Source: Mesobacillus subterraneus (lineage in GTDB: Bacteria; Bacillota; Bacilli; Bacillales; Cytobacillaceae). From it: a DNA stretch of 64,000 bases. Numbering within the stretch: position 1 is the first letter of the stretch; the number at the start of each line of letters is the position of its first letter. Position numbers and translations under genes: made by a program. The stretch covers positions 2,790,001-2,854,000 of the forward strand of contig NZ_CP129019.1 of assembly GCF_020524355.2 (NCBI RefSeq), in the 5' to 3' direction. The notes under the pieces were generated by a model that saw nothing but the letters and a program-made list of their open reading frames with translations, made no database searches and was not told where the DNA came from. Shown one piece after another: positions 15,614 through 32,220 of the stretch.

Positions 15614-15818
15614 GTTGTGCCCCTTCTCTACTTCTTTTTGATTTTTTACCCTTTATACCTGGAATATGAAACATGAAGAATTCTTCTTAAAATTCCCTAT
15701 TGCTAATGCTGGTTCGACGTGTTATATTTATCAAGCGATGAGCTGAATTGTGTAAGCCGACAGACACTCCTTCATGGAAATGCACGATGTGGCGTGCAGT
15801 CAGTCGCCTCAATACGCA

Positions 15819-15846
15819 GAAAAGACGCCCTATGGGCGTCTTTTCT
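15819..15846 (-). terminator. Terminator of the YsnF-like gene
   Basis: A 12-bp perfect stem GAAAAGACGCCC/GGGCGTCTTTTC with a 3-base loop. Confidence 0.85.
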
Positions 15847-27018: not shown

Positions 27019-28148
27019 GAAGTATCAAGGGGATTTTCTTATCGGCAATCGCTTTGATTGCGTCTTTTTTCAATAAAGGACAAAAAAAAGGAAACAGAAG
27101 GTTGCTTGCTTTTTTGAAAGCTGCCTTTGGGAAGTTTGTGGAATCGATTTCTTACATTAATAATCTTAAGCATCGGAATATCCTGATTGGTTCGACGATA
27201 CTTATTGCGTTGTTCCTAATCAGCTGGAACACAGAGCTTATGCCTGAAAGCAATGAGCCACTGATTTTCGATGAAGAAGGAAACTTTGTGGCTGCTCCGC
27301 CTGCTCCTCCTTCGCTAGTCTTTCCGCTCGGGACAGATTTGGGAGCAAGAAGCATGGTTAATCTTGTGCTCGTTGGAGTTAAGTATACTCTTGGAGCTAT
27401 ATTGGGAATCACATTTGCCCGACTTTTGCTTGGTACACTACTGGCGCTTATAACGAAATTATTGTATCCGAGCTTTAAACGATACTTCAGTGCTTTCTTT
27501 TGGCCATTCAGGTATATTCCTCAATTGCTTGTCGCGATTATTTTAATGATTCCTGTGGCATCATCACCTACAGGAATTTCAGCAATAGTCATACTGGAAT
27601 ATCAATTGATTATCATGCTGCTGGTTGGTCTTCCCGGCGTATATCATTACATCCTTGATATGATGGAAGAAATAGAAACACAACCCTATGTCCTAAGTTC
27701 AACGCTGATGGGTGCCAGCAAGTTACACATCTTAAAAAAGCATGTATGGCCCAATATCAAATCTCATTTGCTGTTATTGACTACACAGCAAATCTTATCA
27801 ATCTTACAGCTGTTGACCTTCCTTGGGATTTTTTCATTGTATTTAGGCGGTCCTCATCCAACCGCGCTAACTGATTCACCTCGACTGATATACAGAACAA
27901 TCACTAATGAACTAGCAGGAATGGCCGGCCAAAACTACTGGCTGATCAGAAGAGCCCCTTGGATGGCTTACAGCCCGATGCTGATCATTGCTTTTATTGC
28001 GATCATCGTGAATTGGATGAAAAAAGGAGTCGAGGATCATATTGCGGGAGTGGTGCCGGTTAAACAAATGACCAGAACTTCTGTCGCTAAAAAAAAATAC
28101 CAGCACCGCAAAAAATTTTGTAATAGTTGGCTTGCAAGAACAGCCTGA
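27015..28148 (+). CDS. ABC transporter permease, DppC/OppC type
   Basis: A 377-residue permease, longer than the usual 280-330 because of an N-terminal extension of about 55 basic residues and a Pro-rich external stretch (AAPPAPPSLVFPLGTDLGARS). PLGTD is the typical DppC/OppC entry motif (family form HPLGTDxxGRD). The EAA-like loop is at SSTLMGASKLHILKKHVWPNI. It forms the second half of a heterodimer with the 4-bp overlapping gene before it, and overlaps the next frame by 17 bp. Confidence 0.8.
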   Translation: MRSIKGIFLSAIALIASFFNKGQKKGNRRLLAFLKAAFGKFVESISYINNLKHRNILIGSTILIALFLISWNTELMPESNEPLIFDEEGNFVAAPPAPPSLVFPLGTDLGARSMVNLVLVGVKYTLGAILGITFARLLLGTLLALITKLLYPSFKRYFSAFFWPFRYIPQLLVAIILMIPVASSPTGISAIVILEYQLIIMLLVGLPGVYHYILDMMEEIETQPYVLSSTLMGASKLHILKKHVWPNIKSHLLLLTTQQILSILQLLTFLGIFSLYLGGPHPTALTDSPRLIYRTITNELAGMAGQNYWLIRRAPWMAYSPMLIIAFIAIIVNWMKKGVEDHIAGVVPVKQMTRTSVAKKKYQHRKKFCNSWLARTA

Positions 28149-29829
28149 AGTGGATTATGAAGAGAAGAAATATTTTAGTGACGTAATCCGTGAAAAACTC
28201 AGGCAGACCCGTAGGTTTATGCTCCGCTATAAGGTTTACCTGGCTGTTGATAATACTGCCATCAAAGCTTCTCAATTTATTTCGGAATACCCTAAGCCTG
28301 CATTTACTTCATTACTGACGGTATCTTTCGTGCTATGGGCGGGTGTATTTTCGTATGCGGAATTTTTCGCGGATGAAAAACCAAAGAAAAATAGTGTTGG
28401 TGCATCCAATGAATCAAAAGAAGCGAAAGACTTATTTAGTTACAGCTTCACCAACAAAGAGCATCTGCCGGTCAAATATAAGGCTGACCTGAGTTATCAG
28501 GGTGCCGAAGCCACACTGCAAGGAACACTCACAGTCGAAACAACCAATACTACCGGTGCCGATCAGGATAAAATATATTTTCACCTGTACCCTAACCAGT
28601 TCAAGGAACCGATTAATGGACCTGATTGGGAATTCGTAAGAGGCCCTTCACCGACAACAGGCTCGATTGATATACAAGATATCAAAGTGAATGACCAGAA
28701 AGCTGATTTTAAAGTTGAAGGAACTATTTTAGAAATTCAAATGGCTCAGTGGAAAGACAAGACATATTCAAAAATTGACATTCAATTCAAATTCCAGCTG
28801 CCTTCGAATTATAGCAATTCAAGCTATGATTATGCTGCAGTCTGGCTCGGAAATTTCCTGCCCAAACAGGCTGTGCATGATAAAAATGGCTGGAACCTGG
28901 ATCCTTATTCACCTATCGGAAATCCATTTTACAGCGAAACAGCTGACTATGATGTAACTATTAACACCTCTGCAAAGTACGAGATTCTTTCGAATGCAGA
29001 AGAAGTTAATGCAAGGATCGAGAAAACGGATGAAAAACAAAAATATCACGTCTCCATAAATAATGTCCGTGATTTCTCCGTCGTTCTTTTGGATAAGCAA
29101 TATTATCAAGCTGAAAGATTCATGACCCAGAATCAAACGCTTGTGAATGTATGGTACCGCCCTTCCATTGATAAGCAGCAGACCGCAAATAAAAACGCAA
29201 TGGGCGCTGACCAATCGATTGATTATTTCGAGGAGTTTTTCGACTCAACATTACCTTATAAGGAACTTGATATTATCCGAACCGGAGAAGGCAATCCCCA
29301 AATGGCTTACCAGGGAATGATCTTCTCAGCTGGATATAATTTTTCAGATAACAGCTATACTTCTCTCAGCATGACCGACGGTGTGATCCGTCAATGGCTG
29401 TCTGGATTGGTCGGAAGCCAAGGATATAAAGAACCATGGGTAAATGAAAGTCTTGTAAGCTATTCATTGAAAACTTATATGGGAGAAAAAGGCTACACGG
29501 CTAAAAGCTCCGCTGAAGATCAACTAAAACAACAAGAAGAAATCGCCAGAATACAAAAAGAAGGCCAATATTTAAGCAGCCCATTAAGCGATTTTAAAAA
29601 TATCAATGACTATATCGTGATGATGAATTTACATGGGTACAATATGTACGCTGAGCTGGACTATTTAGTCAAAGATGGGAAAGTGAATAAAGCTCTGAAG
29701 ACATATGTCAACGAGTATACAAATAAAAACGCCTCTGGACATGATGTAATTGAACTTTTTGAAAAAACAGGTCATCCTCAGGCAAAAGGATATTTCGGGG
29801 GATGGCTGAAACCTGAGGTAAAAGAATAG
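28132..29829 (+). CDS. Membrane-anchored M1-peptidase-like protein without zinc site
   Basis: A protein of about 565 residues. It has a cytoplasmic basic head of about 60, one membrane segment (about 63-80, TSLLTVSFVLWAGVFSYAEFF) and a large external domain like the N-terminal and catalytic parts of M1 aminopeptidases. Where M1 enzymes have HEIAHQWF, this protein reads DGVIRQWL, so both zinc His and the catalytic Glu are gone; only the third-ligand region remains as PWVNESLVSYS. It is expected to bind rather than cut. The start TTG 28132 overlaps the upstream permease by 17 bp and has a weak ribosome site. It may be the external ligand-binding partner of the two permeases. Confidence 0.75.
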   Translation: MQEQPEVDYEEKKYFSDVIREKLRQTRRFMLRYKVYLAVDNTAIKASQFISEYPKPAFTSLLTVSFVLWAGVFSYAEFFADEKPKKNSVGASNESKEAKDLFSYSFTNKEHLPVKYKADLSYQGAEATLQGTLTVETTNTTGADQDKIYFHLYPNQFKEPINGPDWEFVRGPSPTTGSIDIQDIKVNDQKADFKVEGTILEIQMAQWKDKTYSKIDIQFKFQLPSNYSNSSYDYAAVWLGNFLPKQAVHDKNGWNLDPYSPIGNPFYSETADYDVTINTSAKYEILSNAEEVNARIEKTDEKQKYHVSINNVRDFSVVLLDKQYYQAERFMTQNQTLVNVWYRPSIDKQQTANKNAMGADQSIDYFEEFFDSTLPYKELDIIRTGEGNPQMAYQGMIFSAGYNFSDNSYTSLSMTDGVIRQWLSGLVGSQGYKEPWVNESLVSYSLKTYMGEKGYTAKSSAEDQLKQQEEIARIQKEGQYLSSPLSDFKNINDYIVMMNLHGYNMYAELDYLVKDGKVNKALKTYVNEYTNKNASGHDVIELFEKTGHPQAKGYFGGWLKPEVKE

Positions 29830-29838
29830 TTGAGTTTT

Positions 29839-29873
29839 CGCCTGAGCTTTAGTAACGAGCTCAGGCGTTTTTT
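29839..29873 (+). terminator. Terminator of the permease/pseudo-M1 operon
   Basis: A 10-bp perfect stem CGCCTGAGCT/AGCTCAGGCG, 9-base loop, T-run. Confidence 0.9.
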
Positions 29874-29920
29874 ATTTCTTTTGTATTAATTGAATATGAC
29901 GAAGGGGTAATACGCGCAGG

Positions 29921-31078
29921 TTCACTTCAGACAAATCACTCGGCCGACTCTTCTCTTTTGACCGAACCTGCACCTACTTCAGTCAAATAACCACCGAGAG
30001 GCTTCTACTTTGTCCGACCCTATACCCACTTCAGACAAATCACCGCCCAGATGTTCTTACTTTGTCTGAACCTATACCCTCTTCAGACAATTCACCACCG
30101 AGATGCTCCTACTTTGTCCGAACCTTCACCCACTTCAGACAAATCACCACCGAGATGCTCCTACTTTGTCCGAACCTGCACTCTCTTCAGACAAATCACC
30201 GGGCCGACTCTTCTCTTTTGTCCGAACCTGCACCCACTTCTGACAATTCACCACCGAGATACTCCTACTTTGTCTGAACCTGCACCCACTTCAGACAAAT
30301 CACCGGGCCGACACTTCTCTTTTGTCCGAACCTGCACCCACTTCAGACAATTCACCACCGAGATACTCCTACTTTGTCTGAACCTGCACCCACTTCAGAC
30401 AATTCACCACCGAGATATTCCTACTTTGTCTAAACCTGCACCCACTTCAGACAAATCACCACCGAGATGCTCCTACTTTGTCCGAACCTGCACCCACTTC
30501 AGACAATTCACCACCGAGATACTCCTACTTTGTCTGAACCTGCACCCACTTCAGACAAATTACCGCCGAGATGCTCCTACTTTGTCCGAACCTGCACTCT
30601 CTTCAGAAAAATCACCGGGCTGACTCTTCTCTTTTGTCCGAACCTGCACCCACTTCAGACAAATTACCGCCGAGATGCTCCTACTTTGTCCGAACCTTCA
30701 CCCACTTCAGACAAATCACCGCCGAGATGCTCCTACTTTGTCCGAACCTTCACCCACTTCAGACAAATCACCGCCCAGATGTTCTTACTTTGTCTGAACC
30801 TTCACCCACTTCAGACAATTCACCGCCCAGATGTTCTTACTTTGTCTGAACCTATACCCTCTTCAGACAATTCACCACCGAGATGCTCCTACTTTTGTCC
30901 GAACCTATACCCTCTTCAGACAATTCACCGCCGAGATGCTCCTACTTTGTCCGAACCTGCACTCTCTTCAGACAAATCACCGGGCCGACTCTTCTCTTTT
31001 GTCCGAACCTGCACTCTCTTCAGACAAATCACTGGGCCGACTCTTCTCTTTTGTCCGAACCTGCACCCACTTCAGACC
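29921..31078. repeat. Array of 22 tandem 52-bp units, each with a hairpin
   Basis: The anchor TCAGAC recurs every 52 bp from 29927 to 31072, with one 53-bp step near 30863-30916. A unit is TTTGTCYGAA, 11 bases, TTCAGACAAA, then a 21-base linker. The two 10-base arms are inverted repeats, so each unit can form a 31-base hairpin. Two linker types occur: A (CACCRCCGAGATGCTCCTAC, 16 units) and B (CACCGGGCCGACTCTTCTCT, 6 units, at units 1, 6, 8, 14, 21 and 22). The left edge is degenerate. Because 52 is not a multiple of 3, long spurious frames run through it in all phases. There is no coding signal. Confidence 0.93.
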
Positions 31079-31083
31079 ATATT

Positions 31084-31992
31084 TCATTCGTAATAAGTAT
31101 CCGATGTGGTTCCTTTTGGAGTGTAAAACTTCTTTAATACTCTGGTTATGCGCCTTTTATTTATTTCTATGTTGCACCATTCATAGATGCTTTGTGTCGT
31201 TATCTTTCTATCTGGAAACAATACCTTGAATTCTTCTATTTGCTTAACGATTGATTGTTCTGCAGATGCAGAATTTCCGCATTTACCGCAGATTAGATGG
31301 CGTATTTTTATAGAAGTATTAAATGAACCACAAGCCCTGCAGTACATACCTTTTTCCAATTGGTCATAATCATATGGAGGCAGAGTGGTAAATGGATTTT
31401 TTACGTGGTGCAAGGAAAGCAGTTTATGGGCAAGTATTTTATGATTCTCGTCCAACTTCGAAGGTGTTTCGTTAAGTTCTTTTAAGAAGCGATTGATTTG
31501 GGTTGGTAAAATAATTGGCAGATCCTTCGGAGCTTGGTAAAGGGTAAATTCTGGGTTGTTAAAAACAACTGCAGCCTGAACGAGGTAATTTAATTTGAGG
31601 TTTTGAAGCAGTTGGCGAAAGAGCGTCTCGCTTCTCTTTAATTGTATGACTGGATTTTTGAACTCTCGGTTGCTCTTCATGTGGTACAATTTTTCTGATT
31701 CCAGGTAATAATCACCTTCGTGATATTTCACATCCAATAGATGTATCAATCCCACAGATATTATGACCTTATCAATTTGGAAATATGAATTATTCACTTG
31801 GAGCAGCAGGTCATCTATTATATACCTTTCCTCAGAGAGGTTTTCAGTCAACAGGTCAAATTCAGTTTCCCCTCTATAGCCCTTTTCCAAATTCGAAAGA
31901 TGAAATTTATCCTTTGCCGCCAACTCCATTCGTGTGTTCAGGTAGCGAAGTCCTACTAATTCCTCTGATTCAGTTCTTTTTTTTAGTAACAT
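31084..31992 (-). CDS. NERD-domain protein with C-terminal zinc ribbon
   Basis: A 302-residue protein. The nuclease-related domain (NERD) lies at about 38-150: GYRGETEFDLLTE, the IDKVIISVGLIHLLDVK strand pair and the Lys in DVKYHEGDYYLE form the family core. NERD proteins are thought to process DNA, but few are tested. At about 215-240 two CxxC pairs (CRACGS and CGKCGN) make a zinc ribbon, followed by a helical basic end with a possible DNA-binding turn (ITTQSIYEWCN). AAAGGAAG precedes ATG 31992. Its stop lies within 10 bp of the end of the 52-bp array, so the array is its 3' untranslated region. Confidence 0.82.
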   Translation of the reverse strand: MLLKKRTESEELVGLRYLNTRMELAAKDKFHLSNLEKGYRGETEFDLLTENLSEERYIIDDLLLQVNNSYFQIDKVIISVGLIHLLDVKYHEGDYYLESEKLYHMKSNREFKNPVIQLKRSETLFRQLLQNLKLNYLVQAAVVFNNPEFTLYQAPKDLPIILPTQINRFLKELNETPSKLDENHKILAHKLLSLHHVKNPFTTLPPYDYDQLEKGMYCRACGSFNTSIKIRHLICGKCGNSASAEQSIVKQIEEFKVLFPDRKITTQSIYEWCNIEINKRRITRVLKKFYTPKGTTSDTYYE

Positions 31993-32147: not shown

Positions 32148-32220
32148 AATCGTTTAACTCCTAAATTAGACGCAGTCTCAATCGTTTAACTCCTAAATTA
32201 GACACAGTCTCAATCGTAAA
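32148..32220. repeat. Short 32-bp tandem repeat, 2.2 copies
   Basis: AATCGTTTAACTCCTAAATT starts at 32148 and again at 32180, with a third partial start at 32212. One base differs (GCAGTCT/ACAGTCT). It lies between the NERD and floT genes; the rest of 31993-32250 shows no gene. Confidence 0.75.

Follow-up and report, generated by a model that had tools for sequence, protein, structure and literature searches.

Putative phased protein-binding sites in a 52-bp tandem array of Mesobacillus subterraneus and its relatives

Anatomy of the array and its surroundings

The window analyzed here, 64,000 nucleotides of Mesobacillus subterraneus (assembly GCF_020524355.2, contig NZ_CP129019.1, positions 2,790,001 to 2,854,000 of the forward strand), holds an intergenic tandem array between two convergent genes. 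The features of the locus are:

28132..29829, plus strand: flanking gene of 565 aa with a weak Peptidase_M1 match below the curated cut-off (Pfam)
29839..29867, plus strand: terminator-like hairpin 3' of this gene
29921..31078, unstranded: whole 52-bp array, 22 units and a remnant right half-unit (Tandem Repeats Finder and unit listing)
29926..29956, unstranded: leftmost part of the array, a remnant right arm (29926-29935) with its linker
29957..31080, unstranded: 22 inverted-repeat units with the core TGTCYGAA-N11-TTCRGACA, the first dyad starting at 29957 and the last spanning 31050-31080
30894..30924, unstranded: sole unit off the strict register, 53 bp from the preceding unit
31084..31992, minus strand: NERD-domain gene, convergent (Pfam)

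Tandem Repeats Finder reports a period of 52, 22.2 copies and 85% matches at 29923-31077, and the 22 unit starts, from 29957 to 31050, are spaced by 52 bp in 20 of 21 intervals and by 53 bp in the remaining one. Each unit consists of 10-base inverted arms (TTTGTCYGAA/TTCAGACAAA), an 11-base loop and a 21-base linker, and the 21 internal linkers are of two shared types (16 and 5). An initial annotation, made by a model from the sequence, had described this number of units, their nearly invariant period, the arm, loop and linker lengths and the two linker types, and all of these stand. CRISPR arrays also alternate regularly between conserved and less conserved segments, but their spacers are unique whereas the linkers here are shared between units, and the annotation was right, as far as tested, that this is not a CRISPR. 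Its placement of the array in the 3' region of the NERD gene needs correction, as the array lies outside that gene, 6 bp beyond its stop (31084, minus strand).

The stop of the opposite gene (hereafter M1-like), which served as the anchor for finding orthologous slots, is 92 bp from the array. A hairpin similar to the one downstream of it follows the M1-like gene in 11 of 13 orthologous loci, as judged by eye (G073 has none and G089 a variant). With the DNA helix at ~10.4 bp per turn, a spacing of 52 bp would set all dyads on the same side of the DNA. The array contains 19 copies of the wider skeleton of the core, TGTC-N19-GACA, and the rest of the window a single one; the number expected by chance is 0.77. 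Two plus-strand reading frames (190 and 208 aa) span the array, but a coding repeat was set aside because 52 is not a multiple of three. Elsewhere in the window lie a BsrF small RNA gene (15735-15843, plus strand; Rfam RF01411, 95.8 bits) and, between the NERD gene and the next long open reading frame, a 32-bp unit repeated 2.2 times with 97% matches (32148-32217).

Related arrays across the genome

Used as a BLAST query against its own genome (G000), the array matched 36 further places in 15 loci. All 15 fetched loci have the 52-bp period in Tandem Repeats Finder, one of them (L018) scoring higher at 104 bp; arms and loop length are kept throughout and linkers differ from array to array. The exact arm-pair pattern (loop 7-15) has 136 matches in the genome, with none for the reversed control, and every one falls in 17 arrays: the 15 BLAST loci, the window and an array at 1.99 Mb with five listed sites that are multiples of 52 apart. 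With 17 such arrays in the genome, the family is peculiar neither to this locus nor to the NERD gene, and the link to NERD that had been drawn is incidental. A looser two-unit pattern finds 328 places, 251 of them within the 16 arrays that were read and 77 outside. In those 16 arrays, 253 of 265 spacings equal 52, and several arrays show higher-order periods of 104 and 156 bp. A further 11 arrays of the 52-bp class were found in 400 kb of stretches chosen away from the 16.

By reading, six of the 16 arrays lie between convergent genes, nine between co-directional and one between divergent genes; these are raw counts that disregard small flanking open reading frames without Pfam support (L011, L013 and L022). 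The flanking genes include putative gcvPB, hemL and selB genes. The longest of the 16 arrays, with 32 copies (L015:3645-5307), lies between a gene matching DUF2399, DUF3323 and JetD_C (Wadjet) and one matching Amj. The same genome also has a 52-bp array of 17.6 copies (L322:186-1098) whose unit (GCACATGTTCGCTC...) is entirely different and lacks TGTC..GACA.

An exclusion of arrays from the origin region was hinted at by the 17 arrays of G000, none of which lies from 3.56 Mb through 4.79 to 0.32 Mb, with the origin probably near 4.4 Mb judging from EF-Tu positions, and by BLAST maps of G078, G074 and G076. This idea was dropped in view of an array ~0.3 Mb from the inferred origin in G072, a single hit in G080, same-core arrays at 237 and 427 kb in G076 and at 346 kb in G078, and the 77 two-unit places of G000 outside the arrays read.

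Distribution and spacing among relatives

Of 193 family genomes, 19 have arm pairs with an 11-base loop: 16 of the 21 in the genus and 3 of the 172 outside it. The reversed control matched in one genome (G168). The two-unit pattern, allowing at most three mismatches, is present in 19 of the 21 genus genomes at 11 to 352 places each and absent from G081 and G089. Across the order it occurs in 32 of 397 genomes, nine from the genus and 23 others, covering 14 of 135 genera and eight families; in three of the 23 the pattern occurs at one place only. The reversed control of this pattern gave no match in any genome of the genus and order searches. The initial annotation had named absence of the array from all relatives and a lack of conserved arms as grounds for abandoning its reading; arrays are present in relatives, with their arms conserved.

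Because the two-unit pattern fixes the spacing, the order search was repeated with loop (4-24) and linker (10-40) free, and 28 of 397 genomes were positive. Among the 150 matches listed, from 19 of these 28 genomes, 134 have a total length of 60, which corresponds to a loop of 11 at a spacing of 52 where lengths of 38-88 were allowed; nine are one shorter, six one longer and one three longer. We also assembled 87 distinct arrays of at least three units, dropping arrays without any spacing seen twice: the modal spacing is 52 in all 87, and 739 of their 793 spacings are exactly 52.

Among the matches listed, at least two units 52 bp apart were found in Mesobacillus selenatarsenatis, M. boroniphilus and several Bacillus sp., and many single sites, mostly with loops other than 11, in unrelated bacteria, which we took as chance. 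Contigs of Chryseobacterium sp. ISL-80 (L035, L049, L061 and L074), also among the matches listed, carry Bacillus-type sites mostly at 52-bp spacing, and this assembly is perhaps misnamed or mixed. The window array had no match in plasmid or phage records and the exact two-unit pattern none in viral contigs, and a mobile origin was set aside on these grounds.

Conservation of half-sites and pairing of the arms

Mean per-site diversity in the 16 own-genome arrays is 0.025 in the core arms and 0.048 in the outer arms; it rises to 0.148 in the loop, 0.196 in the linker and 0.251 at the Y/R positions. Core arms are less diverse than both linker and loop in 16 of 16 arrays (Wilcoxon 3e-5, taking arrays as independent), although units were found by an arm search, which favors conserved arms, and the diversity test, despite its lenient limit of six mismatches in 16, is not clear of this bias.

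Y/R is the only freely varying core pair. Its two sides vary independently in the 16 own-genome arrays (276 units; odds ratio 0.95, p 0.89). In the set of 87 arrays, the combinations C-G (380), T-G (237), C-A (188) and T-A (56) give an odds ratio of 0.48, against pairing, with the proviso that units within an array are related by descent and pair counts are thus not independent events. In total, 425 of 861 units of the 87 arrays are non-Watson-Crick at this pair. On the sense strand of the nine co-directional arrays, C.A mismatches outnumber G.U wobbles (49 versus 13), and the outermost and second pairs are non-complementary in the consensus of three and four of the 16 arrays, respectively. 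Compensatory stem changes were not found at Y/R, the two sides being independent or tending against pairing. Lack of a pairing preference at Y/R together with low arm diversity is the behavior of half-sites for a protein and not of a selected hairpin or cruciform, and so the sequence comparison suggests conservation of a protein-directed DNA signal, not of an RNA hairpin. The loop is polar, with C at position 11 and C at position 21 in 94-95% of 88 arrays, a figure inflated by our choosing array orientation from the loop.

A proposed row of phased sites for a dimeric protein

We favor, with moderate confidence, the interpretation that the array is a set of phased DNA sites for a putative dimeric protein, and a protein-binding scaffold, one of the two possibilities raised by the initial annotation, agrees best with the evidence. 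Each unit would provide one inverted half-site pair, TGTCYGAA-N11-TTCRGACA within TGTC-N19-GACA, for a sequence-specific dimer. With units every five helical turns, bound dimers would face one side of the DNA and could load cooperatively, and the result would be a regular nucleoprotein block just past gene ends. Such a block might, for instance, act as a nucleoid anchor, or as a barrier to the spread of supercoiling or transcription. Several points count against the dimer-site interpretation: an asymmetric loop is odd for a symmetric dimer site, the two-unit pattern is missing from G081 and G089, and, as described below, arrays are missing from many orthologous slots and many 52-bp arrays have no TGTC..GACA pair.

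Persistence and turnover at orthologous gene ends

Orthologs of the M1-like gene were found in 13 of 21 genus genomes, including G000. At least one unit follows its stop in nine of the 13, and at least two in seven (two cut by the locus end); in the eight relatives with a unit at this slot, the flanking protein is 72-85% identical. Among the 20 orthologous hemL loci, eight have no unit, 12 carry one or more and 11 two or more; copy number ranges from 0 to 20 between species (loci end 1.5 kb after the gene). The selB slot has at least one unit within 400 bp of the stop in 10 of 20 loci and at least two in six, a count that leaves out hits beyond 700 bp in five further loci.

In five of 11 species the consensus hemL loop is GTAGCCCCAGG; the M1-like loop CCTGCACCTAC is the consensus in two of seven species and differs by one to three changes in three more, with G083 and G080 differing. 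Between species within a slot, mean identity is 0.90-0.94 in core arms, 0.61-0.72 in the loop and 0.34-0.77 in the linker, compared with 0.32 (loop) and 0.28 (linker) between slots as oriented, or 0.60 and 0.41 in the better of two orientations. These within-slot identities indicate that arrays are inherited at some sites, where linkers drift while keeping their length.

The closest rival to the dimer-site interpretation is a selfish or neutral satellite, in which replication slippage and unequal exchange multiply the unit while arms and period are maintained by an amplifying or converting enzyme that recognizes the arms, the host gaining nothing; we regard this as possible although doubtful. 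The 104- and 156-bp periods show repeated local duplication, and the variable copy number and the empty loci at the hemL slot are equally in its favor. The retention of an array at the same gene end beside M1-like proteins that have diverged this far argues against it, as does the lack of plasmid, phage and viral-contig matches. Similar arrays of no known function in Staphylococcus, the STAR elements, are a further point in its favor. These elements, as presented in parts of PMC3532100, combine a short intergenic motif and locus-specific spacers into ~50-nt tandem repeats and resemble the array in being intergenic, in varying copy number and in having no known function; unlike it, they are described as direct repeats, and their locations differ between species, and their core TGTTGKGGCCC has no match in the window. 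REP/BIME elements, in the portions of PMC2817692 and PMC3733652 drawn on here, are intergenic palindromes, often clustered, with reported host-protein binding, in which REPs alternate in orientation, whereas the array units run head to tail. REPs are also linked there to RAYT enzymes (Y1 transposases); PF01797 matches are present in 18 of 21 genus genomes, but array-rich G000 and G086 have none, so a REP-type enzyme is dispensable and RAYT-driven spread was dropped as a requirement.

Some slots have a different class of array. Of the loci without the 52-bp family, three of four at the M1-like slot and three of eight at the hemL slot, where G075 and G076 are identical, have a 20-bp array, AT-rich in each case (L146, L147, L154, L186, L187 and L193), and the selB slot of G074 has a 53-bp array of another family. 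Arrays of 20 nt are the other constant-size class described in the main text of PMC8161180. The background of this class per 200 kb is four in G078, five in G072 and two in G089, some with a period of 41-42 bp. An exchange of array classes at these slots is suggestive only, and perhaps amounts to two independent events because the slot arrays look shared by descent.

Folding and possible transcription of the array

The second possibility of the initial annotation was a beaded RNA. In our version of it, the NERD transcript (minus strand) would have the array as its 3' untranslated region, and this region would work as a row of hairpins, as a sponge for protein or as a small-RNA source. The 6 bp separating the NERD stop from the array leave no space for a terminator, and the region 29700-31200 gave a single terminator-like site, which lies on the plus strand. 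Compared with shuffled sequences, a stretch of six units folds more stably as either strand (z -2.4 for plus and -3.4 for minus), and a transcript could thus be structured; moreover, the main text of PMC8161180 states that RNA-seq shows transcription of the 52-nt repeats in B. coagulans. Nevertheless, we consider this explanation improbable. The minimum-energy fold of the minus strand is mostly long-range rather than a row of beads, the array contains no Rfam match at or above a gathering score, and a free core pair without pairing preference, the excess of C.A over G.U on the sense strand and the broken outer pairs all disfavor selection on an RNA stem. It is very improbable that the polar dyad is a recombinase core site or a centromere-like site for a partition protein, since the conserved loop polarity that would suit such a site (inflated as noted) is outweighed by arrays scattered beside unrelated genes, by head-to-tail copies in the 16 arrays read and by a 10-11-10 geometry unlike that of familiar recombinase sites.

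Relation to published constant-length repeats

The array is a member of an already known class, because Bacillus tandem repeats of constant length (52 or 20-21 nt) and variable sequence were published by Subirana and Messeguer in 2021 (PMC8161180). As described in the main text of that study, the 52-nt repeats are non-coding, 52 +/- 1 nt long, species specific and present as several families per genome; they carry short signals, often with their reverse, and their function is not explained, with protein polymerization on DNA or a small RNA as proposals. The same text reports 49 arrays of 51-53 nt in B. selenatarsenatis, repeats common to this species, boroniphilus and subterraneus, and, apart from few cross-species exceptions, no sequence conservation, with position partly conserved between strains. 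The class is defined by a period of 52 +/- 1 with at least four units, at least 60% of equal length, and the array has 22, with all but one of its 21 spacings at 52; the 16 own-genome arrays share a size and have different linkers, in line with the same size and different sequence expected within a genome; and TGTCYGAA and its reverse complement form the short sequence and its reverse within the unit. Two consensuses given in PMC8161180 contain the core of the window family, whole in alkalitelluris 71_52_7 and minus the last base in oceanisediminis 79_52_5.

In contrast to the main-text description in PMC8161180, a single half-site family is found here in 14 of the 135 genera sampled, several species keep arrays at orthologous gene ends, and arrays whose inner arms differ are united by TGTC-N19-GACA. 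These points, the arm and pairing tests and the 53-bp family go beyond that main text, and the supplementary tables may hold some of them implicitly. Constant-size 52-nt repeats were reported in 2020-2021 without explanation. Knowledge of the half-site and of the 27-bp span of the dyad, together with the result against RNA pairing and the retention of arrays at orthologous gene ends, now opens the question to simple experiment. If a protein is found, it would be a candidate chromosome-organizing factor of a large Gram-positive group.

A shared skeleton and a second family

We searched for arrays without reference to the motif in 1.4 Mb from 10 genomes, using stretches of G000 away from known arrays; the first family was already known to occur in these genomes, G089 excepted. 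Arrays passing the thresholds of 80 bp and score 100 were lacking in three of the 10, and the whole set yielded 24 arrays with a period of 52 or a multiple. TGTC-N19-GACA is the commonest pair in 10 of the 24 and spacing 22 in one, and 13 have no exact TGTC..GACA pair at any spacing of 3-39; N19 is thus commonest in 10 of the 11 arrays with any such pair. Across 27 published consensuses, N19 occurs in five (one of which also has N5), N17 in one and neither in the other 21, which lack the pair altogether. The skeleton therefore cannot explain all 52-bp arrays, as 13 of 24 motif-blind arrays and these 21 published consensuses are without it. Inner arms differ between skeleton arrays (TGTCCGATAGAG, TGTCCATCATC, TGTCTTAAG and others), so that the common part is the outer TGTC/GACA and the 27-bp span.

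As a tentative proposal, which could be right but which we would not bet on, the 52-nt repeats of Bacillales are not sequence-free: a large share might represent one dyad, TGTC-N19-GACA, at five-turn phasing, read by one old and conserved DNA-binding family whose inner specificity drifts. Such repeats would be the bacterial equivalent of satellite DNA in which every monomer has a fixed box, sharing gene-end slots, and maybe functionally interchangeable, with the 20-nt and 53-nt arrays.

A second family, unrelated in sequence (ACCCTTATG-N16-CATAAGGGT) and with a period of 53, is present in G000 and other genus genomes (loci L226, L228-L230 and L209), with a spacing of 53 bp in 25 of 26 intervals in L228 and 11 of 11 in L230. 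Its arm pair (loop 14-18) was found in 16 of 21 genus genomes and in one of the 172 outside the genus. Diversity was measured in a single array and is again low in the arms (0.025), compared with 0.217 in the loop and 0.149 in the linker.
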